The notes under the pieces were generated by a model. That model had not been told where the DNA came from. It saw nothing but the letters and a program-made list of their open reading frames with translations, and made no database searches. From the NCBI GenBank assembly GCA_009760855.2, contig WPIO01000138.1, positions 806,001-870,000 of the forward strand: DNA of 64,000 bases, read 5' to 3'. Position numbers and translations under genes: made by a program. The number at the start of each line of letters is the position of its first letter. The stretch's first letter is position 1. Source of the stretch: Cristatella mucedo. Its lineage: Eukaryota; Bryozoa; Phylactolaemata; Cristatellidae. Positions 4,413-54,514 of the stretch are shown here, in pieces.

Positions 4413-4968
4413 AACAATGAAGACTCTCGTGTATTCCCACGCCGTATGTGTAATGGAGGACCAGGTGTCGGCAGGTGTCAGTAAAGCTGTCCTCTGTCAA
4501 TCTTTGATGATCCCTTAGAGAAGCTTGACTAATCGACTGGCACCGGCGAGATTGTTTTAGCGAAGCTAGCAAAACGTTTAAGGATCTAAAAACTTACGGA
4601 AACTCAATTCAAACCTAATTATAAAATATTTGTAAGGCTCGCCATGTTGCCAAAACCTTCAGCTCGTCATCTGGGATTCAGTGTTTAGAGGAACCGCGTG
4701 ACCACAGCACTGAGGTGGAAAATGAAGTTGAACGGGTTTTCAGAGGTAATGCCCTCTATTGCTACACTAGTTACAATGCCTATTGCTCTCTTCGTCTTAA
4801 GTAGATTCCCGTGGTTCCTAACAGATCAGCTCATATAACATCGCTCTTTGCCCCGTTTCAGAACACGATGAAGCGAAGAGTAGTTTTTGGTCGGAACTAC
4901 TAACGGTTGTTTTCACGAAAGCTCCAGTTACACTCAAGGCAGCACAAGCAGTTAGTTCAGCAATTTAA
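4413..4968 (+). pseudogene. Secreted peptide family, copy P1 (decaying)
   Basis: Exon 2 is 4413-4476, with ATG at 4417. The 20 codons of the signal peptide hold Glu, Asp, Gln and His where copy P2 is hydrophobic, so secretion is doubtful. Its donor is GTCAGT rather than GTAAGT. Exon 3 is 4682-4745 (64 bp, acceptor GGGATTCAG) and codes for an acidic pro-segment containing STEVENEVERVF, with donor GTAATG. Exon 4 is 4862-4968 (acceptor GTTTCAG). It starts with the linker EHDEAKS, in which the Lys-Arg site has become Lys-Ser, and continues with 28 mostly hydrophobic or amphipathic residues to TAA. Introns 1, 2 and 3 are 598, 205 and 116 bp. The frame is open throughout, but the signal peptide, donor and cleavage site all look damaged. 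Confidence 0.6.
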
Positions 4969-6244
4969 GAATAGACGGCAGAACCGTAACGGATGTGAGT
5001 GCGAAGCGGATTAAATTATTTGCTTGACTCTAATGGGCTATTCATCGAAATACAGTGTAGTGAGTGAATTCAGATTCCACGTTTGTATCGCTTTTTCGCA
5101 CGGTATTTTGACCGACCTACCAAGGCCTAATGGCGCAGCATTTTCGTCTAGGAAAGCCATTTTCCGTGATAGAGATGCTAATTAGCGATGATTACCATCA
5201 CGAGAACAGACAACTCAACATGCGACAGCATACAAAGCTGCCCAAGAGGGTTAAATTGAATACTGATGCTTTATGGGAGGCACCCCAGTTAGGCTGTCTG
5301 CATCACCACCGGCGGTGACCTAAGTATTTAGACGGAAATATGCATGTGATTACACGAAAAAACCCGCAACAGAGAGATGAGTGGCTCCAATGATCGCAAT
5401 TTTCAAGAATACCTTGACACCTACACCCTATCCAGGCTTTCGCCGAGTCGGCTCGCTTACAAGTCTCGCAGGACGTTACGTCATTGTATAATTCATGTCT
5501 AAGGAAGCTTTGCTTCAACTGAAATGGGCCTAGCTGGCAAGTTGCATCGCACTGCATTACTGAAGGACTGGATACTCGCAATCTAATTCAACGGTGACGT
5601 TTTCTTCAACCCGCTTGTCGCTGTCGTACTTTAATCGGTTAATTAGTATTTCAGCTGGTAAGCGACAATTTTCCTGATAGATAAAGTTTGCCCTTAACAC
5701 TAACATGTTTCAAAGTCCGATGCTCAAGCGCTTTACTGACTTTTAAGAACGGACATTTCTGATTTTTGGCAACTATACACGCCCGCTTCACAGACTCGTC
5801 GTATGTATAGGTGCGGTTCCTGGTTAAATGGCGTGGACATAATATGACGGCAAAAACATCACGTTACCGAAAGTGAACGACGCATAACTTTCTGTTCGGA
5901 ATTACCTTTCTGCTAAGATTAAGTCGACCGCATGCACAGGCTGCATGGGATGAGAGGCAACTGCACCGGTTCACGAAACGGCCGTCGCCTACGTGACACA
6001 GTGCCTGCGCCCGTTTAACGAAATGGAACACGAGGGATACACGAATCTAGATCAACTACTGATCGAGCACATTAATTATTCTTCCTCGAGCGATAATCGG
6101 CCATATGAAACTATTCCGTTACTGGATGATTGCAGGATTGGGTGTGGCATTTACCAGAGCTGGCCAGCGTCTCGAAGCGTCTTGGTAAATGAATCATCGC
6201 TCAGACGTGCCGCCCGGTGTTGATATGCACGGTAGACTATGCCG

Positions 6245-6408
6245 TATATAGCTGTAGAAATCTCGGAACTCAAGATCTTTCCTGGCATGTTACCATATAG
6301 CAAAGGTTTTCACGAAGGTATTGAAAGCGTCCACCCGTATATTTGGAACTACATAAACTGCAACTTTAGAGCAGCATTACTACTGTAAACCTTGCGATTC
6401 CAGCCAAG
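6245..6408 (+). promoter_or_regulatory. TATA-like box and non-coding first exon of peptide gene P2
   Basis: TATATA is at 6245-6250. The exon ends CCAGCCAAG at 6408, followed by a good GTGAGT donor. The first intron, 6409-7005 (597 bp), ends TATTTTTAG one triplet before the ATG of the signal exon. Its length is within one base of the same intron in copy P1, which supports the model. Confidence 0.5.
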
Positions 6409-7005
6409 GTGAGTTGCCCTATCGGTCGAACCCCTGGTAAAGTCACTAAGCTTGTGATTCGGATTTTTCTTCTGCCTTCCGTATGGGCTAGTAGCCTCGT
6501 AGCTGTGATACGGTTAGCTATGTACAGAAGAGACTTAAATTAGCCGACCGATCCTACGAGAACTATTCGGCAGGTTCGTCAATAAACCTTTCTTTATAAT
6601 CTGGCCATCAGATACTAGGTCAAAATTAGATTTTCGTGATTGCCCCAATGGTCCCGCAGCTTTGAGAATGCACGTAAATTCATCGAGGCAACTTATCCTT
6701 AGACAAAAGCGTTTAGGTGTGCTTACCTTTGGAGCTTAGTCAGGCGCGTCTCTGGGATTGGCCATGGAGCCGAGTTTCTAAATCAATTTGATCGAAATGG
6801 TCGTTTTTCAGTTTCATACCATTCTCGCAAAAACCTATTACCTCTGCTTTTTTACCAACTTGTAGCACCGTGAGTTGTCATTTAACCGTAGCGCCTGCGA
6901 TTCACCTTATACTAAATAATTAAACCAGGCCGCCTAATAAATCAATTACCGCTTCTTTAGCTTTGCTGGCACAAATGTTCTTAATTTATTGGGAACTATT
7001 TTTAG

Positions 7006-7513
7006 AAAATGAAGACAGTCGCATTCACCCTCGTCTTATGTTTGATGGTGTACCTGGCGGCGGCAGGCGTAAGTAAAGCCGTGCTTTGTTAAACTACGTG
7101 GATCCATTTTGGAAAGCTAACCACTTGACAGCTTACGGCAAGCTTTTCTTAGAGCGACTAGCCAAACGTTAATGAATCTGAAAACAAACGCTAACTTACT
7201 ATTTGCTTAATTATTAAGTAATTGTGATGCACGACATGTCGCTTCGAGTTTCGGCACATCATCTGGGTTTCAGCCTTTAGAAGACACGTCTGATCTAAGC
7301 TCTGACGTGGAAACCAGAGTTGAAAAGGTTTTCAGAGGTAATTCCCTCGATTGCTGTACTAGTTACACTGCCTTTTGCTCTCTTCGTCTTAAGTAAATTC
7401 TCAATACTTCCTAATAGATCACCTCTTATGATCTCGTTCTTTTCTTCGTTTTAGAATACTATGAAACGAAGAGGAATTTTTTTGCGGACATAATCCGCCA
7501 ACTTAGCGGGTAG
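7006..7513 (+). CDS. Secreted peptide precursor P2 (3 coding exons, new family)
   Basis: Exon 2, 7006-7068, has ATG at 7009 and codes for 20 residues: MKT, then the hydrophobic core VAFTLVLCLMVYL and a small-residue AAAG end, a typical cleavable signal. Donor GTAAGT is at 7069. Exon 3, 7274-7337 (64 bp, acceptor GGGTTTCAG), codes for an acidic pro-segment (EDTSDLSSDVE). Donor GTAATT is at 7338. Exon 4, 7455-7513 (acceptor CGTTTTAG), codes for the linker EYYETKR with its Lys-Arg site, then a 12-residue peptide starting NFFADII and a TAG. Total 60 aa. Compared with P1, exon 4 lacks about 30 bp before the stop, so the mature peptide may be shortened. A candidate AATAAA is at 7716-7721. If intron 3 is kept, the frame instead runs to TAA at 7394 and adds a CC..C tail. 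The role is unknown; a defence or signalling peptide is inference from layout. Confidence 0.6.
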
Positions 7514-9399: not shown

Positions 9400-10030
9400 T
9401 ACTAAAAATAAAGAGCTACTCTTTTCGCATTCAGAAAACGCAGTGAACGTGATCGACCACTGAATTACTAAGACACAATGTGCACTGAAATTGGTTAACG
9501 TCGCTGTTAAACCCTGGTTATATATTCTACTCCCCACGAGGTGCATTTATGAAGAAAAACCTCACAAGCGTTCTTTATATCCAATTTTCATTGTCCAAGC
9601 CGTAAATTGTTAAGAGCTTAGCCCGTTCGACCTCGATCTCATCGAGCCACACCAGGCTAAAGGCATGAAACCGTGTCGTTGAGTTAAAGAGTCGCTAACA
9701 TTTGAGAAACAGTTAAAGTCTGAAACTTTTTGTCTGTGACCCTTATTGTGATGGCGAAGCTCTAGAAACGCCATATAAAATTAAATGTTCAGGACGATAT
9801 TGCTCTCCGTGATATTATATTATTCTTAACCTGCTTTAAAATTGTGCCAACGCAATTCTATTTTAGTCTTAGCCTAACATGCCTGCTTCGTAATGGGCTT
9901 TAAACTATTAGGATCCTAGACTTTAAGTAAACCTCATCATTATGAGCCAGTAAAGTATAAACTAAACTTAAAAAGTTCAATTTTCACATTTGGTCATATC
10001 TGTGCCATAATTTCCCGCTTCGACAATCAG

Positions 10031-10153
10031 ATTTGTCAATGCTGACGACAATGAACAAGTGTCAAAGCTCAACAATTGTGCTCTATCGTCTGCATCCTTT
10101 TGTAGGAGTGATATCATCACATATTGGGCCATCTTCAACCTGTGAACAAACAA
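10031..10153 (+). CDS. Possible signal-bearing exon, D2 copy A (hypothetical)
   Basis: An acceptor (CGACAATCAG) precedes 10031, a GTAACA donor follows 10153, and both positions are kept in copies B and C. The frame from ATG 10039 is open for 38 codons and has a moderately hydrophobic middle (STIVLYRLHPFVGV). In copy C the same frame has a much better signal core but no ATG. No partner exon was found, so this is a candidate only. The minus strand here is also open and shows a conserved SLSSAL-NLI stretch in all three copies, so the coding strand is not settled. Confidence 0.25.
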
Positions 10154-10516
10154 GTAACACTACTACAATTTTTGTAATTTTCCCGTTGGTGGAGAAAGCA
10201 CCTTTTTGTGTAGGCGGTTGATGCGACACGGAATGGCGACTTACGTCAATCTCAGAGTGTCGCTTTGTTTATCACAGACACTGAGCTTTTTCATCCGACC
10301 AAATCGTTCTCTCAAGCCATATGTGCCTAGTTTTTATTCAAACTTTACGCGCCAAAATGCAATAAAAAGCCTTAGGAATCTGTGTAAACCGGTACACTCT
10401 CTTAAAAGGTGCTAGTAACCTACAGCTCTGTCAAGCTTGTTAGTCCCATTGCTTAGCATCATGCTTACATATACCCATTTATTTGTCCTCGCTCCTTATA
10501 ATTTGTCTAAACACAC

Positions 10517-10796
10517 TGTTGTTTGGCATACAGAACGCTGGCCCAGAACAATGCCAACGGTTTATTGTAAAGGGCACGAAGCAGCAAGACGCACGACTGC
10601 CTTCGCCCCCTTCTCACACTAGAGTCTCCTTCCACTCCTCCAGTCCCCTGGTTGACCCCGATGATTAATCGAGGACCACAACTGTGCAGTGGCCGACCCT
10701 GGTGGTGAATCCAACATCCGGCCACCAGCGGTTACCGGCCTGTGTCCATGCTACATCACAGGCTCATCAGAGGAGCCGGCATACACTCAAACTACA
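10517..10796 (-). mobile_element. Solo LTR, 280 bp, with 5-bp target duplication
   Basis: Read on the minus strand it starts TGTAGTTTGAGTG and ends CCAAACAACA, with AATAAA about 50 bases before the end as expected of an R/U5 polyadenylation site. It is flanked by CACAC at 10512-10516 and 10797-10801, the direct target duplication of an LTR-element insertion. No internal coding region is present, so it is a solo LTR left by recombination between the two ends. Confidence 0.85.
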
Positions 10797-11399
10797 CACA
10801 CCAATTTCGATTATTTCTTCACCAGTTACCACATTTTGCTAGTTGTGTTGACTGTTCATAAAGGATTTAATGGAAAAATCGATACCACTAATAAATCTTG
10901 TAATGAGTCAAATAATTGTTTGACTATTAGCGATAAAGTTATCGCATGCAAATTTACGCCTAAAGGCTAGCAGTTTCCTGATTATGATTAGCAAGCCTGA
11001 CACGGCATTAGCTTTGCCAACTGTAAGTAACTGACCTATTAGGTATGCTACCGCCTCCCTATTACTCACGTTCGTGCCTAATGTAAATGCTTTAATTGAT
11101 CCATCAGCTTTTCATCAGGCCCAATCTTCCTTAAGCTCTGTTGTGAATCCCTCTCAATCGGTGCTAATCATTTAACTGTGTCCCAACCGTTATGACATTT
11201 TTCTTTAGAATGCTCACTCAGTTTGCCGCAAACCCATTGAAATTCTAGCCGAGTTCATGCGTTCAAGTGTATTCCCCCTAGGGTCTCCCTATTATCAATG
11301 TCTGCTCTTGGTCGTTACGCGGGCCCTCCGACAGCCGTGGTTCACGGGTGATCGACCGGGCGTGCAACACTTTGCATAATGAACACACATGCACTATAC

Positions 11400-11558
11400 A
11401 TGGGTAAACTAAGCAAGTCTACAGAGGAAGGTCCGATACAAGGTAAACAAACTACTGGGGCGCGAGGTGATGCTGCAAGCGCGAACGAATGTGTTAGTTC
11501 TCAGTCGGCTTCCACAGTCACCCCGTCGCCGGCCTCCGTCCCAGCAGTACAAGCGTAG
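11400..11558 (+). pseudogene. Gag-like N-terminal fragment (uncertain)
   Basis: A frame opening at ATG 11400 (MGKLSKSTEEG) becomes rich in Ala, Ser, Thr and Pro (ASTVTPSPASVPAV) and stops at TAG. Low complexity and its place ahead of the pol remnant suggest gag, but there is no zinc knuckle. In copy B the ATG is CTG and there are small indels. Confidence 0.35.
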
Positions 11559-11743
11559 GCTATCCAAGACCCAGCTAGCTGTCCTAGGCCTCAGCATTGA
11601 CAGTAAACACAATGACTTTGTATGGCTCCGAGATTATGCCATAGGGTCTGCAATGTCGTCAGTGGAAAATTGTGGTGCGATGCGAGCAGCATCGCTATTG
11701 GAACGTACCTTAAGATTGACGGTAAAGTGGTTGAGGATGCCTC

Positions 11744-17977: not shown

Positions 17978-20235
17978 GTTTGATTGCAATCAAAGATATT
18001 TTTGGAATTTTTTATATAGGAACGTAACCATCATATTAGGAAGAACTTTGCGTTATCACGAATACTAACCAATCATAACCATCTTAAACATGTCTAGTTC
18101 TTAACCTTGCATTAGGTTATAGTCGAACCACAACGTTTGTTAATTTCGCTAGGTGTCCATCAAAACGTTTCTAAACCATTTTTGAGTTTACTACAAAAGC
18201 ATTCACATTCCTTTTTTCTATGAGGTAACAACATTTTCTTAAGCTACCTCACCAAAGTGAAGCATTCTAAAAAGCTTTCTAGATACAGCTTTCCGAATTT
18301 CTTGGCGTCTTTTGTCGCATTCTTGCCCCTTAAAATTGCTTGTGAAAAACACTGAGGAGTTTTGCTTACTACATATTTTCATTGTGAGTGCACTGCAATT
18401 TATATTGCATTTAAATTCTCAACTCAATCGCTTTTAGGCTGATTTGCATGTTGTATTGGTGAAATATCGCGGTAAGTTACTTTTACTATGTAACAAAAAG
18501 AATAAGCAAACAGCGAGTCAAAATTTATGATTGATCATCGTCTCTTTTCTCTTGGTTAAATGATAATTTTCAATCAATGCAATGGTAAACATGCAAAGCC
18601 TTAGTTTAGTAATCCTCAATTACATTTGTGACTGATAAAGAAATGGGACTTGTATTGGTGCATGCACCCTATTGACTTCCCGGTACCCATTAGGCGAAGC
18701 TCAGCTTGAAAACCAGATTTATCCGTTTTTTCTTCTTGCAAGCTCAAGTGCTATTGCATGATTGTAATTTATCTATTTTAGCTCAGAGAGGACTAGCTTC
18801 GGACTATGTACGATATTCAAAGACAGGCTTTACATGGATTTGTGATTAGTAGCCTTCTATGGTTCAGCCAAATTTCTTGACGTTAAGAAATTAGAAATAT
18901 CGTCAATTTTTACGATTCTTTCATGAAACTGGAGCCTTTCAGTGAATTTCACATACCTCGATTTAGTCTCATTGCAGCAGACCAAAAAAGTCCTGCATGT
19001 ATTTTTAAAAGTTTCGGTCCACAGTTGACTGCCAAGTTATTGACCCCTGAGATTACATTGCGGAGCGTAGATGTCACGCTCCTCTTAGCTTCGTCGTATT
19101 TCAAAATGATGAAATTAATCAGCGTTCATAATCGTTCAATTGGTTCTCACAACTTGACTTTGATCACAGCTACAGCCTATCCAGCTTGTCCTGCTCTCCC
19201 GTTAGTTACCTCTCAGAACCTAAGCCACTTCAGAATTGAGTGCAAGGCCGAAGTAGGTTGTCTAACCCAGATTCTGCAATACATACTTGCAATAATGAGG
19301 TCTTTGACCACAATTCATACGAGACTGTTGATACTTAGCCAATTATTTAGTGCCAACTCATGGTACAGGCATTGGTGGAACGTTGATAAGACGCTCCTCT
19401 TTGCTTTGCCGTATTCTGAAACGCTGCAATTGATCAGAAATCATTATCGTTCAAGTAGATGTCACGAATCAATCATAATGGCAGATCCAGCTTATTTCGC
19501 TGGCCATGCTCTCCGGCTACTTACGTCTCTAAACCTTGTCCACTTCAGCATCGAGATCACAGCTGAATTCAGCATGTACCTCCTAATTCTGCATTATATT
19601 TTCAAAATAATACACTCTTTCATAACGACACACACGATGCTCCAGATTTGAAGCAAATACGTCAGCCTCGATTCTAGGTACAGGTAATCTGTAATTGTTT
19701 TTGTTCGTTGATTCAAACCAACTAAATGTCCGGCTTAGAGTTTTCATAAGGTGAGTTCATTTCAAGCTAAGGCTAAATAAAACTTACCACTGTCATCACC
19801 GGGTTAAACACGATAAGAGCTCAAACCAGGCCTGTGAGTTTCTTTAATTGCATTGAAAAAAATTAGACGAAACCTAACGACCATCTTGTTTTTACACACT
19901 GAGAAATTAACCGGTCCATCACGTTGTAATTCAAATGCATAGCTTTGTTCATTGTAATTTTAATCTCATGAGTGTCCAACCAATTTGAGGCAATAAGTAC
20001 CACAGTTAAATCAAATTTTTCAAGCGACGCCATTCCCGTCGGCTCATTGGGATTTCACAATGACGTAAACATTTCAGTACAAAGCCTGCGAGACTGGGCA
20101 ATGCATTCAAATTGAATGAGGTGCGTACACTATAATATTGCTCTTCCAAGCAGAACAAGTGTCGTGATTTTTGTATGAAAATATTTATGATGATGCAAAT
20201 CCATTCCTAATAAATCTGTTTATAAGTTATAATTA

Positions 20236-22469: not shown

Positions 22470-23012
22470 TTAGCGAATAATAGTTGCAATTTTTAGAGCA
22501 TGCTTGTGAGTGCGCTTTTTTCTTTGGTAGTGTAAAGCCTTTAGTAGATCCTTTAAAAATTGTCTCGTCTCTCCATCACATCCTATAACGTAGCACTCAA
22601 AGCATATTTACAGCGATTTAAGCGGTGCTCACAAATCAATTTAATCAGCGGTTCAGCCTGTTGGACTGGCACAGCTCTCTGGTTAGTTTCCCTTGAAAAT
22701 TGTGTCCTCGGCAGCTTTCAGCTGAGTGCTCAAATCGGACTTTGTCTGCACAGTCTGCAATAACGTCTACCACGGGATGATTACATTGTTCTATTTAGTA
22801 TGCAAAGCAAATAGCATGCAGCAGCTAATAAAAAAATCAGCTTCAATTTATCGCTTTGGTAAAACTGTATTGCTGATCTCTAATAAACATATCCTCAAGT
22901 AGTGAGAAGCCCATTTTAATTAAATTGTTAAACTTGATCTGACTTACCGCAGCCATCATGCGATTGAACAGCTGTACATAAAATACAGCCGTAGTGAGAG
23001 ACTTCATTCTCC
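22470..23012 (-). pseudogene. Secreted peptide family, copy M2 (intact exons, broken splice donor)
   Basis: Exon 2 is 22948-23012 (acceptor ATTGACCAG) with ATG at 23007-23005. It codes for a 20-residue signal-like segment beginning MKSLTTAVFYVQLF, with donor GTAAGT. Exon 3 is 22691-22754 (64 bp, acceptor GTTATTGCAG), a pro-segment with SDLSTQLKAAEDTIF. Exon 4 is 22470-22582 (acceptor CGTTATAG). It codes for linker CDGETR, then a strongly basic peptide starting QFLKDLLKAL with a later RKKR run, and ends at TAA. AATAAA-type signals lie at 22383-22393. The only visible lesion is the exon 3 donor, which is GAAACT where GT is expected; read through, the frame stops after two more residues (GN, then TAA at 22685-22683). 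Intron 2 is 193 bp, exactly as in copy M3. It could be a recent pseudogene, or could be spliced in an unusual way. Confidence 0.6.
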
Positions 23013-32639: not shown

Positions 32640-33241
32640 CTAAGTTATTGCAGGACAGTTTTCCATATTATTAGAACATTGAGTTCCAATCTGTGCAGGT
32701 CCTCCGATCATGGCCTTGCCAATGCTTTAGCCACAGAACTCGTTCCCGTCTGTACGGAGCTCGATGTTGTGGTCGTTATTATACCCTTAAAGAAATGCTT
32801 CTCTGCCTGGAGAGCTTAAAATACCGAAGGATGCGGTTAGAATCCTGTATATGAAAGCCCAGGTACAAAATCTCGTTAGCGACTAAGCCGTTTGACTCGA
32901 GGTGATGCTCCGTCCTAAGCCAAAGCGGTCGGCCCAATTTCCGCAGGTCCACTTTCGCAGCTTTCTTTTTGCTGGTGCAGGCCCGGGCTTACCGTCAAAC
33001 AGATTCTCGAGCTCAGCTTCAACCTTGCCACTAACTTCGTCATCGCTCTGGGTTGCCTAAGGAAAAAAATCATCAGCTTCGTTCAACAGGTGATGGCATT
33101 AACACGAGTGTGAAGCAACGAAAAGAACCTTTTCATTGTTCGGTCGACGGCAACGAGTGGTTCTCGTAACCGTGCCTCGGATCCTAATAATTCCGTCAGA
33201 ATGGCGGCAGCTACCTTGATGAACAGCGAGTTCATGTTTAC
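32640..33241 (-). pseudogene. Secreted peptide family copy in D1 copy 1 (frameshifted)
   Basis: Exon 2 is 33176-33241 with ATG at 33235-33233 and a 20-residue signal starting MNSLFIKVAAAIL. Its donor is GCACGG, with GC in place of GT. Exon 3 is 32993-33056 (64 bp, acceptor TTTCCTTAG), pro-segment QSDDEVSGKVEAELENLF, donor GTAAGC. Exon 4 starts at 32814 after ATTTTAAG. The linker reads LQAEKH (Lys-His for Lys-Arg), then FFKGII. A frameshift near 32730 follows, after which the frame matching the intact gene resumes and ends CSNNMENCPAIT and a TAG at 32642-32640. The two Cys keep the same six-residue spacing as in the 38-kb gene. If intron 3 is retained, exon 3 runs on with a basic tail (KRKLRKWTCGNW) to a stop at about 32888. 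It is the nearest relative of the intact gene. Confidence 0.65.
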
Positions 33242-37909: not shown

Positions 37910-38029
37910 TATATGTATATATGCATATGTATATATGCATATATATATGCATATATATATGCATATATATATATATATGTGTGTGTATTTAAATATATAC
38001 ATATTCCAGTATATATACATATATATAGG

Positions 38030-38060
<31 letters not shown>

Positions 38061-38248: not shown

Positions 38249-38254
38249 TTTATT
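38249..38254 (-). terminator. Polyadenylation signal AATAAA of the intact peptide gene
   Basis: AATAAA on the minus strand, 40 bases after the stop codon. It is conserved in the related copy at 32593-32598. Confidence 0.65.
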
Positions 38255-38294: not shown

Positions 38295-38895
38295 CTAACG
38301 TCCAAGAGGACAAGTTTCCGGGCTAAGAGCACATGAGACTCCAACTTCGACCACGGCATTGCCAGCTCCTGTTCCCAAAGATTTCAATACCTTCTTTATG
38401 ATGGTCTTATTCAGGGTCTTTCCTAAAAGGCTTTTAATGAACCGCTTCTCAGCATCGAGACCTGAAAAAACGAGTCATGTGCTTAGAATCCTGTAATTGC
38501 ATGCCAGGGTGAACAACGTCGTTAGCGAGACCACCGTTTGACTCGAGCTGATGCTTCGTCCTAAGCCAAAAGCTGCTGATAAAATTTCCACAGCAGTGAC
38601 TTTTACAGCATTGTGTTCGCTTGTGCAGGCCAAAACTTACCATCGAACAAACTCTCCAGCTCAGCTTCAGCTATGCGGCTAACTTCATCCTCGCTCTGGG
38701 TTGCCTATGATAACACAAATCATGAGCTTATTTTCAGTAGATGATTATGCCATTAACACGAGCCTGAAGCATGAAAAAGAGCCTTCTTTGGAACGGTCGG
38801 CAGCAAGCATTGGTTCTCGTAACCGTACCTCTGAAGCCACTAATCCCATTAGAAGGGCGAGTGCTACCGAGAGGAAGAGTGAGTTCATGGTTCAC
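38295..38895 (-). CDS. Intact secreted peptide precursor, 96 aa in 3 coding exons (new family)
   Basis: Exon 2 is 38829-38895 (acceptor TTTAATTTACAG), ATG at 38888-38886. It codes for 20 residues: MNS, hydrophobic LFLSVALALLMGLV, then ASE, a textbook signal peptide. Donor GTACGG. Exon 3 is 38641-38704 (64 bp, acceptor ATCATAG). The acidic pro-segment contains QSEDEV and EAELESLFD; donor GTAAGT. Exon 4 is 38295-38461 (acceptor CGTTTTTTCAG) and opens with linker LDAEKR, the Lys-Arg processing site. A Lys-rich amphipathic stretch (FIKSLLGK, IIKKVLKSL) follows, then a Gly/Ala/Val hinge and a C-terminal CALSPETC ring before TAG. Introns 2 and 3 are 124 and 179 bp, GT-AG, phases 0 and 1. Every frame is open and every signal is sound. 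Acidic pro, dibasic site and cationic helix suggest a secreted antimicrobial, cytolytic or signalling peptide; the function is inference. Confidence 0.8.
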
Positions 38896-41094
38896 CTGTA
38901 AATTAAAGTAGGTGAACTGGTTAAACAACGCTGAGCCCGATTCACCTTCTCGTAAAGCTGGTTCTGTGCTGACTTTAACGACAAGACCTAACACCATCAG
39001 AGATAACGTCTTTAGATAACCGGGTCACAAGGAAACTGTGCACCTATTCACGATTAGTATGAATCTTCTGGGCGATGTAAAACCTTGTGGGGAAGCTTGG
39101 CTTCGATGTATTGTGCAACGTTCCCAAGCAGAAGGTGAGGCCCGATGAACAGAATGCTACGGCAGTAGCCTTACAGGTTGATTGAGGCTTTCTAGCATGC
39201 ATGCTTGCGACCCAAGCTAGGAAATTCTTAGTCGCAATTTACGAATGAAGGCCTTATGGGAACATGATCTCCATCGTAGCGGAAAGAAATAACGACATAC
39301 CTGGTCGTATTCACGGTGATAGTCGGCTCCCTGCTATGTGTCAGCTGTAGTGACTGACTGTGTTTATATTCACTCACAAACCTGACGTTTCACCAATGAG
39401 ATTGGGCGTATTATCCACTCTATTGATGCTTGTAGACATTTATTGGGGTCAGGAGGCGAGCGAAAAGATGTCTTGAACCCCTAGAAGTCAAATTCCACGT
39501 ACGAGTGACATAGCTGATGTGGCAGTCAGCACCGGCATGCTAACGGGCTTCAAAGCAAGCGAATCGCCAGCAGGACTGGGAGCATGTGACTACCTGGATA
39601 TCTATAGGTACTGCTGGGTTTTCCTTCGACCAAGCATCAGGAAGTCATGTCACGTTTAGGACGTACGAAATACTTTTACTTAGTTAAAGTACCTTAAAAG
39701 TGCATCCACGAAAGGCAGGGTCTCTTAAGGTGAAGATTTGCATGGAATACTGAATTAATTTAGTTAGAACTTTGGCTTACGAAGCTCGGCATACTCGAGC
39801 AGTTTTTTAAAGTTAGGCTAGTAAAAAATCACAGACTAGCAAGACACTAAGTGAAAGAACAGATTAAAGTCGATACTCTAAGGGATTGTAGGGCCAGTCC
39901 TGATCGGCGAGAAGTGCTGTAATGTTACAACTGTGAAGCACCAAGCTTGCTGAAGAAAGTCTTGGAAACTTGTACTCACTGCATTAGGTGCTATGACGCT
40001 ACACCCGGTAGACAAGCAAGCTCTGAGTTACTGTAGTCGGGATGGAACGTTACGACCTAGACAATTGTTTTACGTTTCATAACCCAGTCAAAGAAAGCCC
40101 AGATTTTAGCGAGGTTTGGCAGCTGAAAGTAGGCAGATTTTGCAGTGAAGCTGAAAAGCTCACCGAGGAACAAAACACCGAGAATGTATGTATGTAAAAG
40201 GATAAGCAGGACGAGCAACACTTGAGCGATACTCTTTCCAGTCGCAGAGTCACCCTCGATTATCTTACAACTAGAAACTCAGATATATGGTCGTTATATT
40301 GGAGAAGGCTTGCTGCAATCTTTGTGCGGATTTCAGCACAACATGCAGCAAGGGTATGCAGATAATATAATTTAACATGCTAAAAAGCTAGTTGGGATCG
40401 AGCAAAAAGCAAACCACGTGTCATTCGCGTAGAATTGAAGGCCCAGATTATGCTTAGTTTTGCTATAAGCAAGACGAAGAGAGTACAAGCTGCTACAGTT
40501 AGCATGCTGAGCACAGAGCCTGATAGTCACCTGCTACGTAGAGGTTGATCGGGTGACTCATGTAAGCCCCCAATAATAATTTGAAATTTCCTACTTGAAA
40601 GGATTTACTCCCTCCCGTCGTAGAAGGTGTTATCTTTGAATAAGTACTAGGGTATATTTTATCAATACTTTGACGACAATTTATAGGCTACAGTTTTTTC
40701 CTTACATGGATACTTTTTCGATTGTCTTGATTGATCTTTTAGCTAATTCTCAGATCGTGTGTTATTATTTCTACTAACTGGGCTTGTAGTTTGGCCATAG
40801 GATCACAGATGAACAATATTGCGCCTTGCCACATGTCCTTGAAGTCATTAAGGAAGGATTACGCTCACAATAATAGTCTTGGATGACTGATGCATAAGTA
40901 TATTTTTGCTAGAATAGACCATCCTCAGGGGGAAGCATCCTCCTAGGAATCTCGTCTCCTTATTCCAAGCAGCTACTAGATGTCCGTATTCGAGGATATT
41001 ACGAGAGACTTCGTCCTCAAGTTCAGATCCCAATGTAACACGACAACTTTTTTCCTCTCGACCCAATCCCCACAGTCTTCTTCGTACTTTCTTT
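38896..41094. other. Upstream flank of the intact gene; decayed LINE B3
   Basis: 39300-39860 matches the flank at 33940-34600 and should hold the promoter. No clear TATA box or 5' exon could be placed. 39880-40440 is a strongly decayed, minus-strand family B LINE, recognised by GATCGGCGAGAAGTG..GTAATGTTACAACTG, CAGCTGAAAGTAGGCAGATTT and ACATGCAGCAAG. 40450-41094 shows nothing recognisable; the frames at 40848-41209 are overlapping chance frames. Confidence 0.5.
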
Positions 41095-41543: not shown

Positions 41544-41608
41544 CTTTACAGCAAATGTAAAGCGCCTAGAGAGAGATTAAGTTCTCTGAGGGCGCTTTAT
41601 CAAGTGAA

Positions 41609-41655
<47 letters not shown>
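41544..41655 (+). mobile_element. Isolated L2-type 3' tail with longer (ATT)n
   Basis: The D1 copy of the tail at 25759-25857. Here the ATT run spans 41613-41655, longer than in copy 1, a length change since duplication. Confidence 0.7.
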
Positions 41656-42790: not shown

Positions 42791-42839
<49 letters not shown>

Positions 42840-42855
42840 TAAATATATACATATA

Positions 42856-42912
<57 letters not shown>
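42791..42912. repeat. Compound microsatellite (TA)n-(GT)n
   Basis: The D1 copy of 26993-27120 with a shorter GT run (about 42859-42912). Confidence 0.95.
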
Positions 42913-42914
<2 letters not shown>

Positions 42915-44503: not shown

Positions 44504-44615
<112 letters not shown>

Positions 44616-46602
44616 GAAATAGCTCTAAGCCATAATATAAATTAGGTCTCCATTTCTTTAACTGCATCTCATATCCCCGGAATGCCTAAACTCAGGGTCT
44701 TCGTCTCTCAAATTTCGGTAAAAGGAACCACGATGCCTTAAGCTATGTTGTCAGGAATGAATGCTAATCACCAAAAGAAATGAACACATGCGACCAAGCT
44801 ATTCTCGCCTCTAAGCGCCTATTACTACTGATATTTAAATTCAGTTGTAGAATTTACTCCTTAAAATTGAAATTCTCACAAACGTTGAACCCGGAAACCG
44901 ATATAAGTTAGACTTGTTTAAAGCGTTGCTGTTAGCCGTTCGATCACAGGGTCCATGAACTTACAAGCCCTTGGGCAGTAGAACGTTAACTACTGACGGC
45001 TAGGGGGCCTTTCCCTTTGCCAGCGGCCGCGATGGATTGGTCGGTGGCTAGTAACCAGTGTCTTACTTATGATCGTATGTACCTATAGTTGCTTCGTTGT
45101 TTTCGTCAAATTGGATTTCTGGATGTGACTTTTATTTATAAGGTCCGTGAATTGGGCTTTAGCAAACAAAAAGCGGTATACCCTTTGCCTGGGCTGGTCA
45201 CTTGGGACCAAGGTCATTTGATATTTCCAGCAGGATCTCGAACCACCCTGAGCAATCTCTCTCATTTGCTCCTGTAAATATCATTCAGCTAGTGGTCATT
45301 AGGCCAGTTATAACCGGCAGATAGCGTAAATAAGTTCAAGGGATGTGATGGCTATATCCCTCGACACGTTCGGAGAGTCCATGATACTACCCTTTGACGT
45401 GTAAGACAGGATGCGTGTAATTGAACGTACTCTACTTCTAGTGAATTCGACAATTATCGAACATGCTGGACATCTCAGAAATTTTAGCAGTAACTCAAAT
45501 GATGCAATCATCTTTACTTTAAGCTGGTCTCCAGCTTTTAAAAACACCACCCTTTTGGAAATGACGACGCTGAGTCACATTGACTCTAGACAAAACTGCA
45601 AAGGCAGAACGTCCCTAGAGAAACAGTCTTAAAGAAGAAATAACTCTGCACATCAATAAACAACGGTACACAAGGAAAATCAATCGCTATATTGCCCGAC
45701 GCTGCAAAAATTCTTCCTGTTGCGAAGCTTAGTGCACTGCTTTCAAAAGCCTGTGACACTTAACTGGCGTCTATGAACCAATTTCGCACCAGCCCATCGA
45801 AAGACCCGAGATTGATATTTTACTTTTCAACAACTGCAAGCTTTGTCATGGACACGGTGCTCGGTGTACTGCTTATGTGGGCTTTGGTATAATACAGACA
45901 TCTAAGGTCACTCATCAAAGATTTGAGAATTTAGGTCGTCTGAGACAGCGGAACGGTAAATAATGACTCCGAAGACCTTGTTAGAAGATCTTTCCCATCT
46001 CGCACAAACTCAAAGTTCCTTGTCATGCACTTCACACAATAGGAGGTGCATTATTTCTTTTGTCCATTGATTAAGAACTTGCACGATGCGGCACATGTGA
46101 GCACAAAAATAATAATGACACCAAAACATCTTTCGGTGCATGCAATGTCGGTGAGATACTTATAGCACTGATTGACCTTGACTTTCACAATTACAGCCAG
46201 AGGTCATACGTTTAGGTCGACGATCCGTCAAGGCCCAGAGCAACAAAGTTGAGAACACAGAATGATGCAGAGGATGCAGGCTTAATATTAAACATTACAT
46301 TCTGCAGTCAAGCTCACGAGCTAAGAAGGCTTGCACCTACCTAGCACTACACTGAAACACCGTAGCTCAACACCAGCCTGGTTTGATTTACAGGCACATC
46401 AGAACTTCTCGGCGAAAAATCGTCTTCGTACCGGGCAGTGAAGATATTGCTCTGCTCACTGACTGGCTCGGTACACAGCAATAACGGTAAAAACACCCGA
46501 TAGCAGAGATAACTTTTAGAGTATTCGTACTTTTAAACGTGCCTAACTCAGTCTGTGAGGCACTTCCAGAATTTATTTGTCGAATAGAACGTGTAGGTAG
46601 TC

Positions 46603-47376
46603 TTGGTGGGCTATCACACAGAAAGTGAGCCGAGCCTACTGACCTTAGCCGCAGCTGGCAGACCGCATCAATACGAGAGTGTCCTACTAGCAGCTGCGGC
46701 TAGGGGAGGTCGTCTTACTGATATTTTCCAGGCTAATCTACGGTCTAAACATCTAGAGCAGATTGGCAACCATGAGATAGCTCGGACGCTGACAATAAGC
46801 AAGAAACGTTTACGAAATAACATTCAAAACACAGCTGTGATGGATACGGTGAAGGACCAGCATGTGTCCGGCTGCACTCGGGCTTTGACTAGATGGTGTG
46901 ATCGGCTCCTGAAAACAGAGTTCAAGGAGGCCAGCTTTTCCCCTACATGTATCTGTGCCAAATCACTCGAGCTAACCATCAGCTAGATACTTAGTGAGTG
47001 GACGGGAATGCGATGGCTCTCGGAACCAGTGCTTGTGGCAAAGGTGGAAAAGAAAGCTTTCCTACTGCCGAAAGCCCATACAGAACAGCTTCGCTTTTGT
47101 CCATGGCAGCATAGACACCGGAGTTTACACGATTTGAAATTGTACGAGAAACAATTACGTGTCCTCAATGTTGTCCTCAAAAATGTAACTATAAAGCATC
47201 TTGGATTACAGCATGAAATTCTGCCAAGTTCAAGCTGTGATTCAATCTGTGTGCAAGAAATTGCAACTCTTGTATTCGTGGTGAGTTCGCGAAAATTAAC
47301 CTACCACTCCCAGTGCGTCCATGAAGATGTTAAGATGTTGATCTGTAATGTCCCTCTTTCGTTACTAATCACGTGA
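46603..47376 (+). pseudogene. Unknown ~258-codon frame with one internal stop (D1 copy 2)
   Basis: Nearly identical to 31162-31935, with the same TAG between the halves (46984-46986). Differences are few, for example Thr to Ala early and Thr-Ile to Glu-Ile near the end. No recognised domain. Confidence 0.3.
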
Positions 47377-47928
47377 CTTGGGCTACATGCTTTCCTTAAG
47401 ACATGAAATGAGCCATATGGCTATGATTACTGTTACTTACGACAGTTCTTTGTGCTTCGGTGATTGCTGACTGAGATGACGAATATCTAGATCCTAATTT
47501 CGGCAACCTAAGCCGTTTGTAACTGTGTCCCTATTTCATTTCGGTGAACTCTTCGTCTGCCCTCTGAGTAGCTGCTTAGCACTGATCACTTCATATTTGA
47601 ACGATTCAACCCAGTAATTAAACTAGAGAGTGCTATTTGCTGCTGACTCGATAGCGGAAAGACCTTGAAAGTCAATGTTTCCATGAGAGCATAGCCAAAT
47701 ATATGGCAAACGTGTTAGGTATTCGGACATTCAAGCTAACTCAATTCATTCAGCACACCCTTGATGCCAGTGCACTGAGAAAATGGTTAAATGAGGTTTT
47801 TCTTAACACAGCTAAACCTTCAATAGCAGCTTCGTTCAACAGGTGATGGCATTAACACGAGTGTGAAGCAACGAAAAGAACCTTTTCATTGTTCGGTCGA
47901 CGGCAACGAGTGGTTCTCGTAACCGTGC

Positions 47929-47994
47929 CTCGGATCCTAATAATTCCGTCAGAATGGCGGCAGCTACCTTGATGAACAGCGAGTTCATGTTTAC
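47929..47994 (-). pseudogene. Orphan signal exon of the secreted peptide family (D1 copy 2)
   Basis: Identical in reading to exon 2 at 33176-33241: acceptor GATTTACAG, ATG at 47988-47986, MNSLFIKV start, GC donor. The exons that should follow are deleted (junction 47828/47829), so no precursor can be made. Confidence 0.7.
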
Positions 47995-48833
47995 CTGTAA
48001 ATCAAAGTAGGCGAATGGTTTTCCAATAGCTGAGCTCGATTCACCTTCCCATAAAGCTGGCTCCGTGCCGACTCTAGTGACAAGGCCAAACGCCATCGGA
48101 GAAAACTACTTCGGATGAACGGCTCACAAGGAAATTGTGCACCTATTCAAGGTTAGTGCGAAGCTTCCTAAGAGACCCAAATCCTTGTAGGGCCGCTCAT
48201 CTTTGAGGTGCTGTGCAACATTAGAAAGCAAAAGGTGAAGCCCGATACAGTGAAAGCTAATGCATCAGCTTTACAGGTTGTTTGAGGCTTTCTAGCAAGC
48301 CTGCTTGCCACGCAAGCTAGGATTTTCTTAGTAGCAACATGCGAATGAAGGCTTAATTACAGAATAGATCTGCCTCTTAGAGAAAACAACAACCCACGCA
48401 CCTAGATGTATTCACAGCTTCAATTCCACGTTACAGGTTAACTCGAAACAATAAATTCGAAAGGCAGCCTCACAGAAATACCAAGAGATATCACATCAAA
48501 TGATAAACTCGAGATTACGGCGACTGCTCTTTAATACTCTTCCTTAACCGACTTCTCTTTAATGCTTGAGGCGAAGTCTGTTGGCAACCGAATGCTCACT
48601 GAAAGCCGCTTAGGTTGTGAAAGCTCTTAGCTAAACTCTCTGGCGTAACACTGTCCTGGTATCAATGGCTTGGTCAAGTTACAGACAGATAAAAAGGAAG
48701 GACTACTCTTTTAGCATTCCGGAAACGCAGCGAACATGATCGACCACCGAATTACTAAGACGCAATGTGCACTGAAACTGGTTAATGTCGGGGTTTATCC
48801 CTGTTTATATAGTCTACTCCCCAGTTCGGGTGG

Positions 48834-48893: not shown

Positions 48894-49246
48894 TTGAGTT
48901 AAAGAGTCACTAACAATTGAGTAACATTTAAAGTCTTACATTTTGTGTCTGCGACTCTAATTGTGATAACAAAGCTCTAGAAACGCCATATAAAAGTAGA
49001 TGTTCAGGACGATATTGCTCTCCAAGTTATTATACTATTCTTAGCCTGTTTCAAAATTGTGCCAGCACAATTCTAATTTAGTCTTAGCCTAACATGCCTG
49101 CTTCGTAATGGGCTTTAAACTATTAAGTATCCTAGACTTTAAGTAAACCTCATCGTTATGAGCCAGTAAAGTATAAACTAAACTTAGAAAGGTTTATTTT
49201 CACATTTTGTTATATCTGATCAATAATTTCCCGCTTTAATAATCAG

Positions 49247-49369
49247 ATTTGCCAATGCTGACGACAATGAACAAGTGTCAAAGCTCAAGAATTGTGCTCT
49301 ATTGTCTGCATCCTTTTGTAGAAGTGGTATCATCACATATTGGGCCATCTTCAATCTGTGAACAAACAA
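49247..49369 (+). CDS. Possible signal-bearing exon, D2 copy B (hypothetical)
   Basis: Same acceptor and GTAACA donor as 10031-10153, frame open for 38 codons from ATG 49255, with a hydrophobic middle (RIVLYCLHPFVEVV). Same doubts as copy A. Confidence 0.25.
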
Positions 49370-49731
49370 GTAACACTACTACAATTTTCGTAATCTTTCC
49401 GTTGCTGGAGAAAGCACCTTTTTGTTTAGGCGGCTGATGCGACACGGAAGGGCAATATACATCAATCTCAGAGTGTCACCTTGTCTACCACAGACAGTGA
49501 GTTTCTTTTATCCGACCAAATCGTTCTCTCAAGCCATATGTGACTATTTTTTCTTCGAACTTCGCGCCAAAATGCAATAAAAAGCCTTAGGAATCTGTGT
49601 AAACCGGTACACTCTCTTAAAAGGTGCTAGTAACCTACAGCTCTGTCAAGCTTGTTAGTCCCATTGCTTAGCATCATGCTTACATATACCCATTTATTTG
49701 TCCTCGCTCCTTATAATTTGTCTAAACACAC

Positions 49732-50011
49732 TGTTGTTTGGCATACAGAACGCTGGCCCAGAACAATGCCAACGGTTTATTGTAAAGGGCACGAAGCAGC
49801 AAGACGCACGACTGCCTTCGCCCCCTTCTCACACTAGAGTCTCCTTCCACTCCTCCAGTCCCCTGGTTGACCCCGATGATTAATCGAGGACCACAACTGT
49901 GCAGTGGCCGACCCTGGTGGTGAATCCAACATCCGGCCACCAGCGGTTACCGGCCTGTGTCCATGCTACATCACAGGCTCATCAGAGGAGCCGGCATACA
50001 CTCAAACTACA
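49732..50011 (-). mobile_element. Solo LTR, 280 bp (D2 copy B)
   Basis: Appears identical to 10517-10796, including the CACAC duplications at both ends, so the insertion came before the copying of this segment, or was carried over by conversion. Confidence 0.85.
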
Positions 50012-50790
50012 CACACCAATTTCGATTATTTCTTCACCAGTTACCACATTTTGCTAGTTGTGTTGACTGTTCATAAAGGATTTAATGGAAAAATCGATAC
50101 CACTAATAAATCTTGTAATGAGTCAAATAATTGTTTGACTATTAGCGATAAAGTTATCGCATGCAAATTTACGCCTAAAGGCTAGCAGTTTCCTGATTAT
50201 GATTAGCAAGCCTGACACGGCATTAGCTTTGCCAACTGTAAGTAACTGACCTATTAGGTATGCTACTGCCTTCCTATTATTCACGTTCGTGCCTAATGTA
50301 AATGCTTTAATTGATCCCGTAGCTGTTCATCAGGCCCAATCTTCTTTAAGCTCCGTTGTGAATCTCTCTCAATCGGTGCTAATCAGTTCACTGTGCGTCC
50401 CAACCGTTATGACCTTTTTCTTGAGAATGCTCACTCAGTTTGCCACAAACCCATTGGAATTCTAGCCGAGTTCATGGGTTCAAGCGTATTCCCACTAGGG
50501 TCTCCCTACTATATATGTCCGTTCTTGGTCGTCACGCGGGCCCTCCGACAGCCGTGGTTCACGGGTGATCGACCGGGTATGCAACACTTTACATAATAAA
50601 CACGCATGCACTATACACTGGTAAACTAAGCAAGTCTACAGGAAAAGGTCCTATACAAGGTAAACTACCGGGGCGCGAGGTGACGCAGCAAATGCGAACA
50701 GTTGTGTTAGTTCTCAGTCGGTTTCCACAGTCACGCCGTCGCCGGCCTCCGTCCCAGCATTACAAGCGTAGGCTGTCCAAGACCCGGCTA

Positions 50791-52565
50791 GCTGAGTACT
50801 CTGGGATAGACGGCGCATCGAGAGCTTTCTCCGAAAGAGCGGGAGCATGCTGTTCCACGTTACGGTCCTCGTTCCTCTGGGAGCCGACCCAAGGCTTTGC
50901 CCTTCCGAGGCAAGGCGACGCCCAGCCCGACATTTCGAATGTCAAGTGGGTCTGCCTATTCTAGGGTACAGAATTAGTGATAACTAGTTGAAGCCGAATA
51001 GTCCTGTTAACTTGAATCAAGGTGTGGGTTAAATTCATGAACGGTTCTACCAGAACAGTTACAGACGTGATAGGTTTCATCTATTTTTGTACCTGGACGC
51101 TAGCGAAAACTGGCTGCGGAGTCTCCACGGTCTCTCGCTCTGCCATTAATTTTCAACAACTTTTCATTGGCTATGAATGAGTCTTTCAAAGACGTGATTA
51201 AGGTCCTTACGACGTCCAGGCAATTGAATATGTAATCTACAGCCCATCGGACAGATTCTTTACAATTCTCTTAAACCTTTGACGTAAGTCATTGTTTGGT
51301 TCGACAAATCAAATCTTGACCTGTTAGATGTAATTGAAATTTAATTCAAAAGAGCTTCCTGACATCTTTAGTGTCAAAGTACGAGCAATATCTTACTCAG
51401 TTGGTCTGTGGCTCACGTACTTGACCTTGTCACTACAACACTTTAACACATATCTTGCCAGAGATACCATTTACATCCCTTAATCGGAATTATACCATAT
51501 AAGACATAATCATTTGAACACTTTCAAAGACTTTGCAGTGCCTTTATATCGCAGGAGGCTCAAACTTTTTCTTGCATGCTACAGAAGCATCGTATTTTTC
51601 TATAAACACATTTTGAGAGGATTGAAATTTCATTCTGTATATATTTAATTTTCAACACCAGGCATAAACAGCAGCATTCAAAAGGATTACTGCAGCTGTG
51701 AGTCGATGTAAAAATTAGCTTCACAGATAGTTTTCAATTAAATCGTGAAAGCAACTAACACGCAGCTATCAGCAGAGGCAGCAAGAAGCCGACTAACTTG
51801 ACCAAAGATACTCAACCAGCTAGTCCTACGTAATCAAGCTTGAGAAAGCGAATGAGATGTCATTTCTGACATTCTAGTGTAAAGCTTTCCAGGAGAACAG
51901 CGGAAATAACCAGTTGATCCAGGCGAATGCAGATGCGAGTTTGTGTACAGCTAATGTTAAATTTCCGGCTTGTGATTCAAAAACCCACTGGATACACCGT
52001 CACCCATCTCCTCGACCTCTCTCGTGATATTTTTCTACCCAGTGATCATTTTGGATATCCAAGTTATTATCGCTGATTTAGCTTTTTTGCCAGCAAGAGG
52101 GTCACATGTTCAGTCTATCCTAAACATAGCAGCTCCTACTCTGGACTCATGTATCTTTAAATCAATCCTTTAGTATTTCTCTGATCACTTACCTGCTACC
52201 TTCCTGTTCTGTGTCTCAAGTTGTCTGTCGCAGTGTTTTCGAATCCTATTCTGAATTCACGATACTAGCAGTATAGATCATTTCATTTATATAAGATGTA
52301 AAATTTTGACTTATCTAAGCCATGAAAAAAGGCTTCCATAAAGAGCTTTCAATCTCCAGATTCGGGATCCGTTTGCCTATGGTTTGCCTTCAAGCCCAAT
52401 GTACCTACAAGCCACGATAAAGTGATTGGTTTTGCTGACTAAATATTTCGGTTGTAAGTGTACCTCGCACTTTCCTATTTTGATCCCATTCTGAACAGCA
52501 GACTGAGATGCAAATATGCATTTCCATTGGTCGGAAATCTAAGAAAAGTAACCTTGAGCAAGTAA
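50791..52565. other. Diverged non-coding sequence; part of D2 and F units
   Basis: 50800-50955 is GC-richer and open (frame 50680-50964, ending SNVKWVCLF). It has no recognised motif and may be a retroelement scrap. 50990-51480 matches 57090-57500 at low identity. 51750-51800 resembles the 5' exon and donor region of the peptide genes (ACTAAC at 51754-51759 as the minus-strand GTTAGT donor). 52180-52560 matches 62660-63020. Confidence 0.4.
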
Positions 52566-52806
52566 TTTAATGTAATTTAATGTAATGTAATGTAATGTAT
52601 CTCAATCAGTAACTCCACAAAGTCATAAAGACCGTGTGGGTGTTACGCAGGAGACTTTTATATAGCGCACTCACAGCCTAAGCTGCTTTCGGTACGCATT
52701 CGGTAGCCAACAGACTTTGTCTCACGCAACAAAAAGAAAATGGGAAGCATAGCAGAGTTAGGAGAGCAGTTGCGGTAGTGAGTAGCATAGAAGTAGCAGT
52801 TCAGGA
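52566..52806 (-). mobile_element. CR1-like LINE family A, 241-bp 3' fragment (copy A3)
   Basis: Contains the family A 3' end: (TTACA)-type tail at 52566-52600, then the same sequence as 57650-57870. It is flanked by CAAGTAA at 52559-52565 and 52807-52813. The homologous sequence at 63024-63030 has a single CAAGTAA and no insert, so insertion and empty site are both visible. Confidence 0.85.
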
Positions 52807-53425
52807 CAAGTAAGAGTAAGAAAACTCGTAAAGGCAGTCGAAGGGAGTAATTTTGCCTTTCATCTTGTGCATTATATACGGCTAATAATAGTAGAGTAAA
52901 TCTCATGCAGGACAAGTGAAGCCTTAATTTTACAATGAATCAGATGGGTCATTGTCATTAAACTGCAAGTTGATAATGCATCCTATTCTCTCCTCCTCTG
53001 TAAATAGCCAGGGGTTACGGTGGAGTCAAGCTCGCTCGCCTAGGTTGTTGTCTTCTTCCAGCCTTAACTGGGAGACTGTACTTTGCTCTATTATTATAAT
53101 CCATGAGAATCCTGTTTGCTAACTATACAGGATATTTGAAAACCGATTTGAGAGTCTGCCCTTACTTTGCGAAGGCTATTGTTCTATTTTGGAGCCAAAT
53201 TTCTAAGTGTTAAGTGACGCCTAGAAACTGTTAACTGTTTTCTCAATGCTGTTTATTGCTTAGAATTGGCTACAAAAGTGAAGCCAAAATGTGACGATAT
53301 ATTTAACCAGTGAATGACTTCGATTGCAGCGGACTGAAGTGCTCCTGCGATAGTTTATATGAGTGTTGGTCCATACTTGATGGCCATAGCAGTTCCTGTT
53401 GATGTCACCTTCTGGAGCAACGACG

Positions 53426-54514
53426 CTAAGCTAACCTCTTGGCTTCGTCGTATTCTGAAAGGGAAAAAAGTGAGCAACGCATGGTAATCGTTTATATTAT
53501 TGGGCTCGTGACTCAATACAAATTACAGCTACAGCCTGTTCTGCTTGCCTTGATCTCCTGTTGTCTTCCTCTAAAAGGTTCCCCTACTTCAGCTATTAGC
53601 TCAGGGTTAAAGTCAGAATTCTCCTCCCGAGGCTGAAATAAAACTGCAATGATATAATATTTCGCCTCGTCGCGTGGAAAAATTTACGTTCTTAGCCAAT
53701 AAATTTGTATTGATTGATTGCAAAGAAGATTTGTGCTATTTCTTAGTATCACGAACCCTTTCAGAGCCAGGCATTAAACTTTCATAAGCAGAAGGCATTT
53801 AAAGTTTAGGCTAAATAAAACTTACCGCTGACATCACCAAGTGAAACAGGAGCTCAGCAAAAACAGCGATTGTAAGAGACTTCAATTTGACCTAAAAGAA
53901 ACAGCAAAGAACTAAATAAACGTTCTTGTTTCACAAACTAAACTACTGAACTCGGCTATACAGTTCTTCTTTAAATGAATTTCTTATTTCCTCATTCAAT
54001 TGATTTACTGCGCTATCATGTTTACGACCAGATGTAGCACATTTAAAAACGCATTTTGAGATTACAGTTCTCTGTATAGCTCCCTAAGATATCCTAATCT
54101 CTACTCAGGCACTTCACAGATAGCTCGAGGCTAGAGACCACAACCTGAATTAGATCATGGTCGGGTTAAGCACCAAAACTGCAGGACCAAACAAGTTCCG
54201 CGTAAACAGATGCCATTTATGACATTTAATCGGAATTTCGCAGTCAACCACACACTCAATGTAGCACTTTATAAGACTTAGCAATGCTGTCAGTTAGCAT
54301 GAGGTGCAACCTTCCCAAAGTTGTTCATGCAAGCAACATTCGAATCATAGCTTTCGTATATCATATTTTAAGAGTAAGAATTTCCATAGCTAATAAATTT
54401 CACCTTAAGAACACTACATAAATGCTATCACTTAAAATGACTGATGCTGAGATCATTCAACCTTTCAATGAGGCTCACATATTGTTTTCACCAAAATTTT
54501 CGAGGCAACTAACG
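53426..54514 (-). pseudogene. Secreted peptide family, copy M3
   Basis: The 5' exon ends at 54514 before a GTTAGT donor. Intron 1, 54513-53892 (622 bp), ends TTTCTTTTAG. Exon 2 is 53826-53891. The start codon is TTG (53885-53883) where copy M2 has ATG; the signal is hydrophobic (LTIAVFAELLFHLVM) and the donor GTAAGT. Exon 3 is 53569-53632 (acceptor TTTATTTCAG), an acidic pro-segment with EENSDFNPELIAEV. Its donor is GAAGAC, GA in place of GT. If it is read through, the frame stays open to a TGA at 53513 and adds a GCSC tail. Exon 4 begins at 53454 (acceptor CCTTTCAG) with linker EYDEAKR but stops after two more residues. Three separate lesions make it a pseudogene. Confidence 0.65.

Follow-up and report, generated by a model that had tools for sequence, protein, structure and literature searches.

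A duplicating and decaying gene family for probable secreted host-defence peptides in the bryozoan Cristatella mucedo

Introduction

What kind of gene has been copied again and again along a 64,000-nucleotide stretch of the genome of the bryozoan Cristatella mucedo (NCBI GenBank assembly GCA_009760855.2), and what might its products do? The stretch, hereafter the window, covers positions 806,001 to 870,000 of contig WPIO01000138.1 (C42:806001-870000). A first reading of its letters (the original prediction) had named eight places as copies of one four-exon gene family of at least seven members that would encode fast-evolving secreted peptides of a defence or venom type. Here, the eight places are compared with one another and with the rest of the genome, by searches covering 572 Mb in 688 contigs. 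Judged from sequence, the window probably holds part of a secreted host-defence (antimicrobial-type) peptide gene family, one without relatives found outside this genome. It is most likely a new addition to a kind of peptide family already known: rapidly diversifying, probably membrane-active peptides.

Two complete genes and six decayed copies share an exon skeleton

Family sequence is present at 8/8 of the named places (Table 1). Complete genes were found at two of these—P2 (7.0 kb, plus strand) and M38 (38.6 kb, minus strand)—where at least seven members had been predicted; the remaining six (P1, M19, M22, M33, M48 and M53) are decayed or truncated. The skeleton common to the intact genes consists of (i) a 20-codon signal exon, (ii) a 64-bp acidic propeptide exon, and (iii) a last exon with a lysine-arginine pair (KR). 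Ahead of KR there thus stand a secretion signal, predicted from the hydrophobic 20-codon exon, and an acidic segment. The signal ends in Ser-Glu in four of the six distinct intact genes (Pro-Glu in the gene at C42:433 kb, Ala-Gly in P2); the C-terminus of the protein is Gly-Arg (GR) in four of six (Gly in P2, Cys in the gene at C42:433 kb).

Two subfamilies can be distinguished: type A, which includes M38, and type B, with a linker of the form EY...KR. A non-coding exon 1 and a TATA box are conserved across four aligned type-A genes, and an intact type-B gene at C42:745 kb also has four exons when read by eye. The predicted four-exon structure therefore holds for these genes, while for P2 no first exon was found. 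In P2, we preferred the signal exon donor GTAAGT after codon 20; a mechanical gene-model scan chose a donor 12 nt further on. The predicted exon sizes and phases (60 nt, phase 0, for the signal exon; 64 nt, phase 1, for the propeptide exon), with GT/AG sites, are borne out in P2, P1 and M38. They break down in M33, where the signal exon donor is GC, and in M22 and M53, where the 64-nt exon ends at GA instead of GT, so that its length is a relic there.

The decayed copies carry further lesions. All exons of P1 are open, yet its signal core contains charged residues and Lys-Ser replaces KR. M19 has a stop codon in the signal exon, and its two propeptide exons, read by eye, contain stops as well. 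A search by eye for the last exon of M22 found none. In M33, which is 74% identical to the M38 region, the 64-nt exon retains AG/GT sites and Lys-His replaces KR. M53 has TTG in place of ATG, has lost the propeptide donor, and meets a stop two codons past KR.

Table 1. Family features in the window, numbered from its first nucleotide.
Feature	Positions	Strand	Remark
M38 TATA box	39363..39368	-	conserved in four type-A genes
M38 non-coding first exon, 3' end (then donor GT)	39301..39306	-	same donor in all four aligned type-A genes
M38 signal exon, coding part, 20 codons MNSLFLSVALALLMGLVASE	38829..38888	-	
M38 propeptide exon, 64 bp, acidic	38641..38704	-	
M38 last exon: LDAEKR, 48-amino-acid mature region, two Cys near end, GR tail, stop	38295..38461	-	relatives elsewhere in genome
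M38 AATAAA polyadenylation-like signal	38249..38254	-	read in sequence
P2 signal exon, 20 codons MKTVAFTLVLCLMVYLAAAG	7009..7068	+	
P2 propeptide exon, 64 bp, acidic	7274..7337	+	
P2 last exon: EYYETKR, 12-amino-acid region ending in Gly, stop	7455..7513	+	
P1, decayed relative of P2	4417..4968 (exons 4417-4476, 4682-4745, 4862-4968)	+	
M19, decayed type B, two propeptide/last-exon remnants	19040..19853	-	
M22, decayed type B, signal and propeptide exons only	22691..23007	-	
M33, decayed type A	32640..33235 (signal exon 33176-33235, 64-bp exon 32993-33056, degraded last exon)	-	
M48, signal exon of truncated M33 twin	47929..47988	-	
M53, decayed type B	53426..53885 (exons 53826-53885, 53569-53632, 53426-53454)	-	

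Intact relatives lie in tandem arrays elsewhere in the genome

With the M38 protein as query, open last exons were found at three places on contig C233 (expectation value, E, 5.6e-11) and at five places in C42:108-152 kb, including 134 kb (E ~3e-5). It is this homology that leads us to reject a chance assembly of splice sites; the gene-model scan gave two models in the window against a total of three over 12 simulated windows, which is weak evidence alone. The C233 relatives are three tandem copies with a 13.2-kb spacing, all three with intact full models, and intact full models also occur on C42 at 108, 117, 143 and 151 kb (a tandem array) and at 433 kb. At the DNA level, the 5' half of M38 gave 26 matches across C42, C233 and C592, among them C592 and C42:423 and 460 kb. 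The array at C42:106380-152574 consists of six repeats of a ~8.6-kb unit, and every repeat carries an 86-87% and a 74-75% relative of M38; the ~75%-type relative at C42:115 kb, the sole one of the six read, looks decayed, and another type-A copy, C42_170, is decayed, with a frameshift.

The intact type-B gene (C42:744595-745133; MKSFTVALIVGLLFHAVLSE) has the 64-bp exon and a 27-amino-acid mature region ending in LLLGR; its two other DNA matches, at C42:882 and 766 kb, are both decayed. Its identity to M38 is 28%, and that of P2 is 20%. On the strength of the exon skeleton and KR, types A and B likely share one origin.

Searched as a protein, P2 finds identical P2 copies only—one 8 kb upstream on C42 and one on contig C122—and as DNA it finds P1 too. 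C122 also holds a near-identical counterpart of P1, and its segment C122:855001-865000 (10 kb) is 99.8% identical to C42. This stretch may be the other haplotype, with a copy-number difference, or an assembly duplication. Within the window, M33 and M48 represent one gene doubled by a recent segmental duplication (25308-33936 versus 41094-48689; 97.4-99.4% identity in three aligned pieces), the two copies being 99.4% identical over 863 bases.

That the family expands by tandem duplication and decays by pseudogenization is well supported. The predicted birth and death is seen in the tandem near-identical arrays, in the many decayed copies, and in P2 itself, present once on C122 and twice on C42. 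Might the window, then, hold nothing but silent remnants of a family that was active in the past, M38 and P2 included? The six decayed or truncated places and the short coding region of P2 point that way, but M38 retains its TATA box, splice sites, open frame, Cys pair and AATAAA, and the arrays on C233 and C42 are intact. We give this explanation very little probability.

Two observations concern the surroundings of type-A genes. Firstly, the M38 5' flank (~39363-39510) contains blocks ahead of the TATA box, including TCGTACGTGGAAT, that are conserved in four type-A genes. Secondly, long TA and GTGC arrays occupy 37640-38177, beginning ~120 bases 3' of the M38 stop codon, and TA/GT-type microsatellites also lie just 3' of the genes on C233 and at C42:151 kb; such arrays could favour recombination.

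The mature segment diverges beyond the introns

For each gene pair, its own introns served as the neutral yardstick, and the type-A mature region was taken without its last 14 residues. In four type-A pairs, differences in the mature region versus the introns were 36/102 versus 24/302, 40/99 versus 41/302, 32/111 versus 40/303, and 52/99 versus 119/300 (Fisher p 4e-10, 4.5e-8, 4e-4 and 0.027, respectively). The pair C42_117/C42_170, compared over the 34 ungapped codons before the C42_170 frameshift, gave 30/102 versus 41/302 (p 5e-4). For three ungapped type-B pairs, identity was 54-59% in the mature region, 64-82% in introns and 74-80% in 3' ends (p 9e-4 to 0.016). The mature segment is hence less conserved than introns in 8/8 tested pairs from both subfamilies, though these pairs share genes, are not independent, and in several cases include a decayed copy. 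By raw counts, two window pairs point in the same direction: P2/P1 (identities of 21/39 in the mature region, 136/205 and 94/116 in introns) and M38/M33 (86/143, versus 87/118 and 127/177).

Signal and propeptide behave otherwise. In three close type-A pairs they do not differ from introns (p 0.32-0.44), while in the most diverged pair they are more conserved (28/144 versus 119/300 differences, p 2e-5), as expected under constraint. This comparison of signal, propeptide and mature rates upholds the predicted fast evolution of the mature peptide in both subfamilies. As to the companion statement, that mature regions are almost unalignable, part of the effect is the decay of dead copies.

Is the divergence driven at the amino-acid level? 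Nonsynonymous divergence (dN) in the three type-B pairs is 0.73-0.88 and synonymous divergence (dS) 0.27-0.34 (ratio 2.4-2.7); for M38/C233, the opening 16 codons of the mature part give dN 0.90 and dS 0.15. Since introns and flanking DNA can still be aligned between copies, the family lends itself to a natural test of whether selection, gene conversion or local mutation renders the mature part hypervariable. Segment exchange or local mutation may lie behind the divergence in type A.

A cationic type-A mature peptide suggests probable membrane activity

The type-A mature peptides are 47-52 amino acids long with a charge of +5 to +7, following an acidic propeptide: mature charges are +5, +5, +6 and +7, against -8, -6, -6 and -9 for the propeptide, in M38, C233, C42_117 and C42_433. 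Hydrophobic moments compared with those of shuffled sequences gave p 0.022 in P2, 0.002 in the type-B gene at C42:745 kb and 0.049-0.349 in type A, a mixed outcome as regards an amphipathic helix. An AlphaFold model proposes two helices, weakly (predicted local distance difference test, pLDDT, 63), and Foldseek returned no matches with this weak model.

A profile of four type-A mature regions, run against 177,635 PDB sequences, matched the spider venom peptide cupiennin-1a best (E 2.8e-5, over 30 residues), followed by gaegurin-4 (0.096), hylaseptin-4 (0.23), leucine dehydrogenase (0.39) and a capsid protein (0.47). Since the last two come close behind the frog peptides, only the cupiennin-1a match is clear. 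We read it as likeness of kind rather than kinship, with convergence the likely cause. Among 5.8 billion proteins, neither M38 (7 candidates) nor an alignment of six precursors (7,734 candidates) found a relative at E <= 10, in a search that requires shared five-residue words and that distant relatives can escape. Pfam and NCBIfam matches all fell under the curated cut-offs, single-sequence PDB searches gave no informative match, and four octapeptides from the Cys loop turned up nowhere in 5.39 million open-licence papers.

The best PDB match raises the question of venom. In this account, the peptides would be offensive or deterrent ones of mucus, skin or a gland, directed against prey or predators, with precursor and membrane action unchanged; mature parts of venom peptides, too, can evolve fast, and an acidic propeptide followed by KR is known there as well. 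The next profile matches, though at E above 0.09, are to frog skin peptides, and we regard a venom as distinctly unlikely. Of the predicted "defence or venom-type" role, the fast mature evolution is supported; sequence does not separate defence from venom.

The third alternative is that the peptides signal or serve in recognition (as neuropeptides, pheromones or in gamete recognition) and do not kill. Amidated signalling peptides are typically cleaved at KR and end in Gly or Gly-Arg, and P2 would yield a short neutral peptide. Here, though, the mature part is the least conserved, unlike that of ordinary neuropeptides, and type A is long and strongly cationic. Signalling thus seems improbable by a wide measure, even if it may accommodate fast-evolving recognition peptides.

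Discussion

Under the host-defence explanation, the parts of the precursor would act in sequence. The 20-residue signal would direct secretion; the acidic propeptide would keep the peptide harmless until a convertase of the furin or proprotein-convertase (PC) type cleaves after KR; the Gly of the GR or G end (5/6 distinct intact genes) would serve amidation; and in type A the C-terminal Cys loop would close by a disulfide. The released, largely helical peptide might then disturb microbial membranes. The family would grow via tandem duplication and quickly turn to pseudogenes, with the mature segment driven to change and the signal and propeptide kept.

Several points weigh against this explanation. 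Mature net charge is 0 in P2 and only +2 in the type-B gene, and the amphipathicity of type A barely exceeds that of shuffles (hydrophobic moment p 0.080, 0.349, 0.049 and 0.059). Tests of nonsynonymous versus synonymous change are weak (Fisher p 0.126, 0.064 and 0.040 for type B; 0.045 for the first 16 codons of M38/C233), and two of the three type-B genes, like C42_170, are decayed. Across whole type-A mature regions dS is also high (0.53-1.5 or saturated), and in C42_117/C42_170 it exceeds dN (0.57 versus 0.32). With dS so raised, amino-acid selection alone is no sufficient explanation for type A, although the high values may come partly from misalignment of gapped pairs.

Known peptide systems offer partial parallels. 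The C-terminal Cys loop of ranid frog skin peptides, the "Rana box", spans seven residues in gaegurin-4, compared with eight in type A. The profile match to gaegurin-4 (E as above) aligns a cationic helix and the C-terminal two-Cys loop; no significant sequence match of the signal or propeptide was found, and the frogs belong to another phylum. In one ranid study, a signal, an N-terminal propeptide and a mature part follow one another, the prepro region conserved and the mature region variable as here, and ranatuerins have two or three exons versus four here (PMC6365531). The mussel myticalins are described as hyperdiverse linear lophotrochozoan peptides with a non-coding exon 1, a conserved phase-1 intron, many pseudogenes and presence/absence variation, but with three exons and a central mature part followed, after a dibasic site, by an anionic C-terminal extension (PMC12294457). 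In C. mucedo, by contrast, a separate 64-bp exon encodes the acidic propeptide, which is N-terminal, and a pair of Cys residues occurs in type A. The intact genes read have no myticalin-like anionic extension: their acidic part lies ahead of KR, and the protein stops with the mature part.

Cupiennins (PDB 2k38) share with the type-A mature profile a Gly/Ala/Lys-rich cationic helix; the likeness is one of mature composition only, and the matched chain lacks a Cys loop. Fish piscidins, whose precursor layout differs, gave no match to the family. They resemble it as cationic peptides reported to have diversified by positive selection (PMC2830478).

If the host-defence explanation is true, lophotrochozoan linear defence peptides gain a family that has no known relatives by sequence. 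Live, near-identical arrays beside dead copies would also make birth and death directly measurable. A more far-reaching version is unlikely on present evidence, if still worth stating: that a frog-skin-like orphan arsenal arose independently in a lophotrochozoan, and that a process peculiar to the locus (exchange of segments or a local rise in substitution, coupled to selection) diversifies its mature segment, so that coding DNA, type-A synonymous sites included, outpaces its own introns.

Other features of the window and the assembly

Inverted copies of a non-long-terminal-repeat (non-LTR) retrotransposon, which we take to be CR1-like, lie at 493-2303 and 57648-59459 (93.7% identical), with a reverse transcriptase domain at 57726-58910 (E 3e-13) and similar retrotransposon pieces in both flanks of the window. 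A further 1.9-kb stretch is duplicated at 93.3% identity (9679-11581 versus 48894-50794). In the right flank, an open stretch at C42:931259-931831 presumably resembles an MLX-type basic helix-loop-helix (bHLH) protein. The mitochondrial COX1 gene, on contig C688, places the host among the Lophotrochozoa: of 7,999 proteins scored against it, the 120 listed comprise one at 95% identity and 119 at 77-82%, the latter including gastropods, cephalopods, chitons, nemerteans, a phoronid and annelids. Judged by the conservation of COX1, the gene reads best under genetic code 5, and the other mitochondrial codes were rejected.

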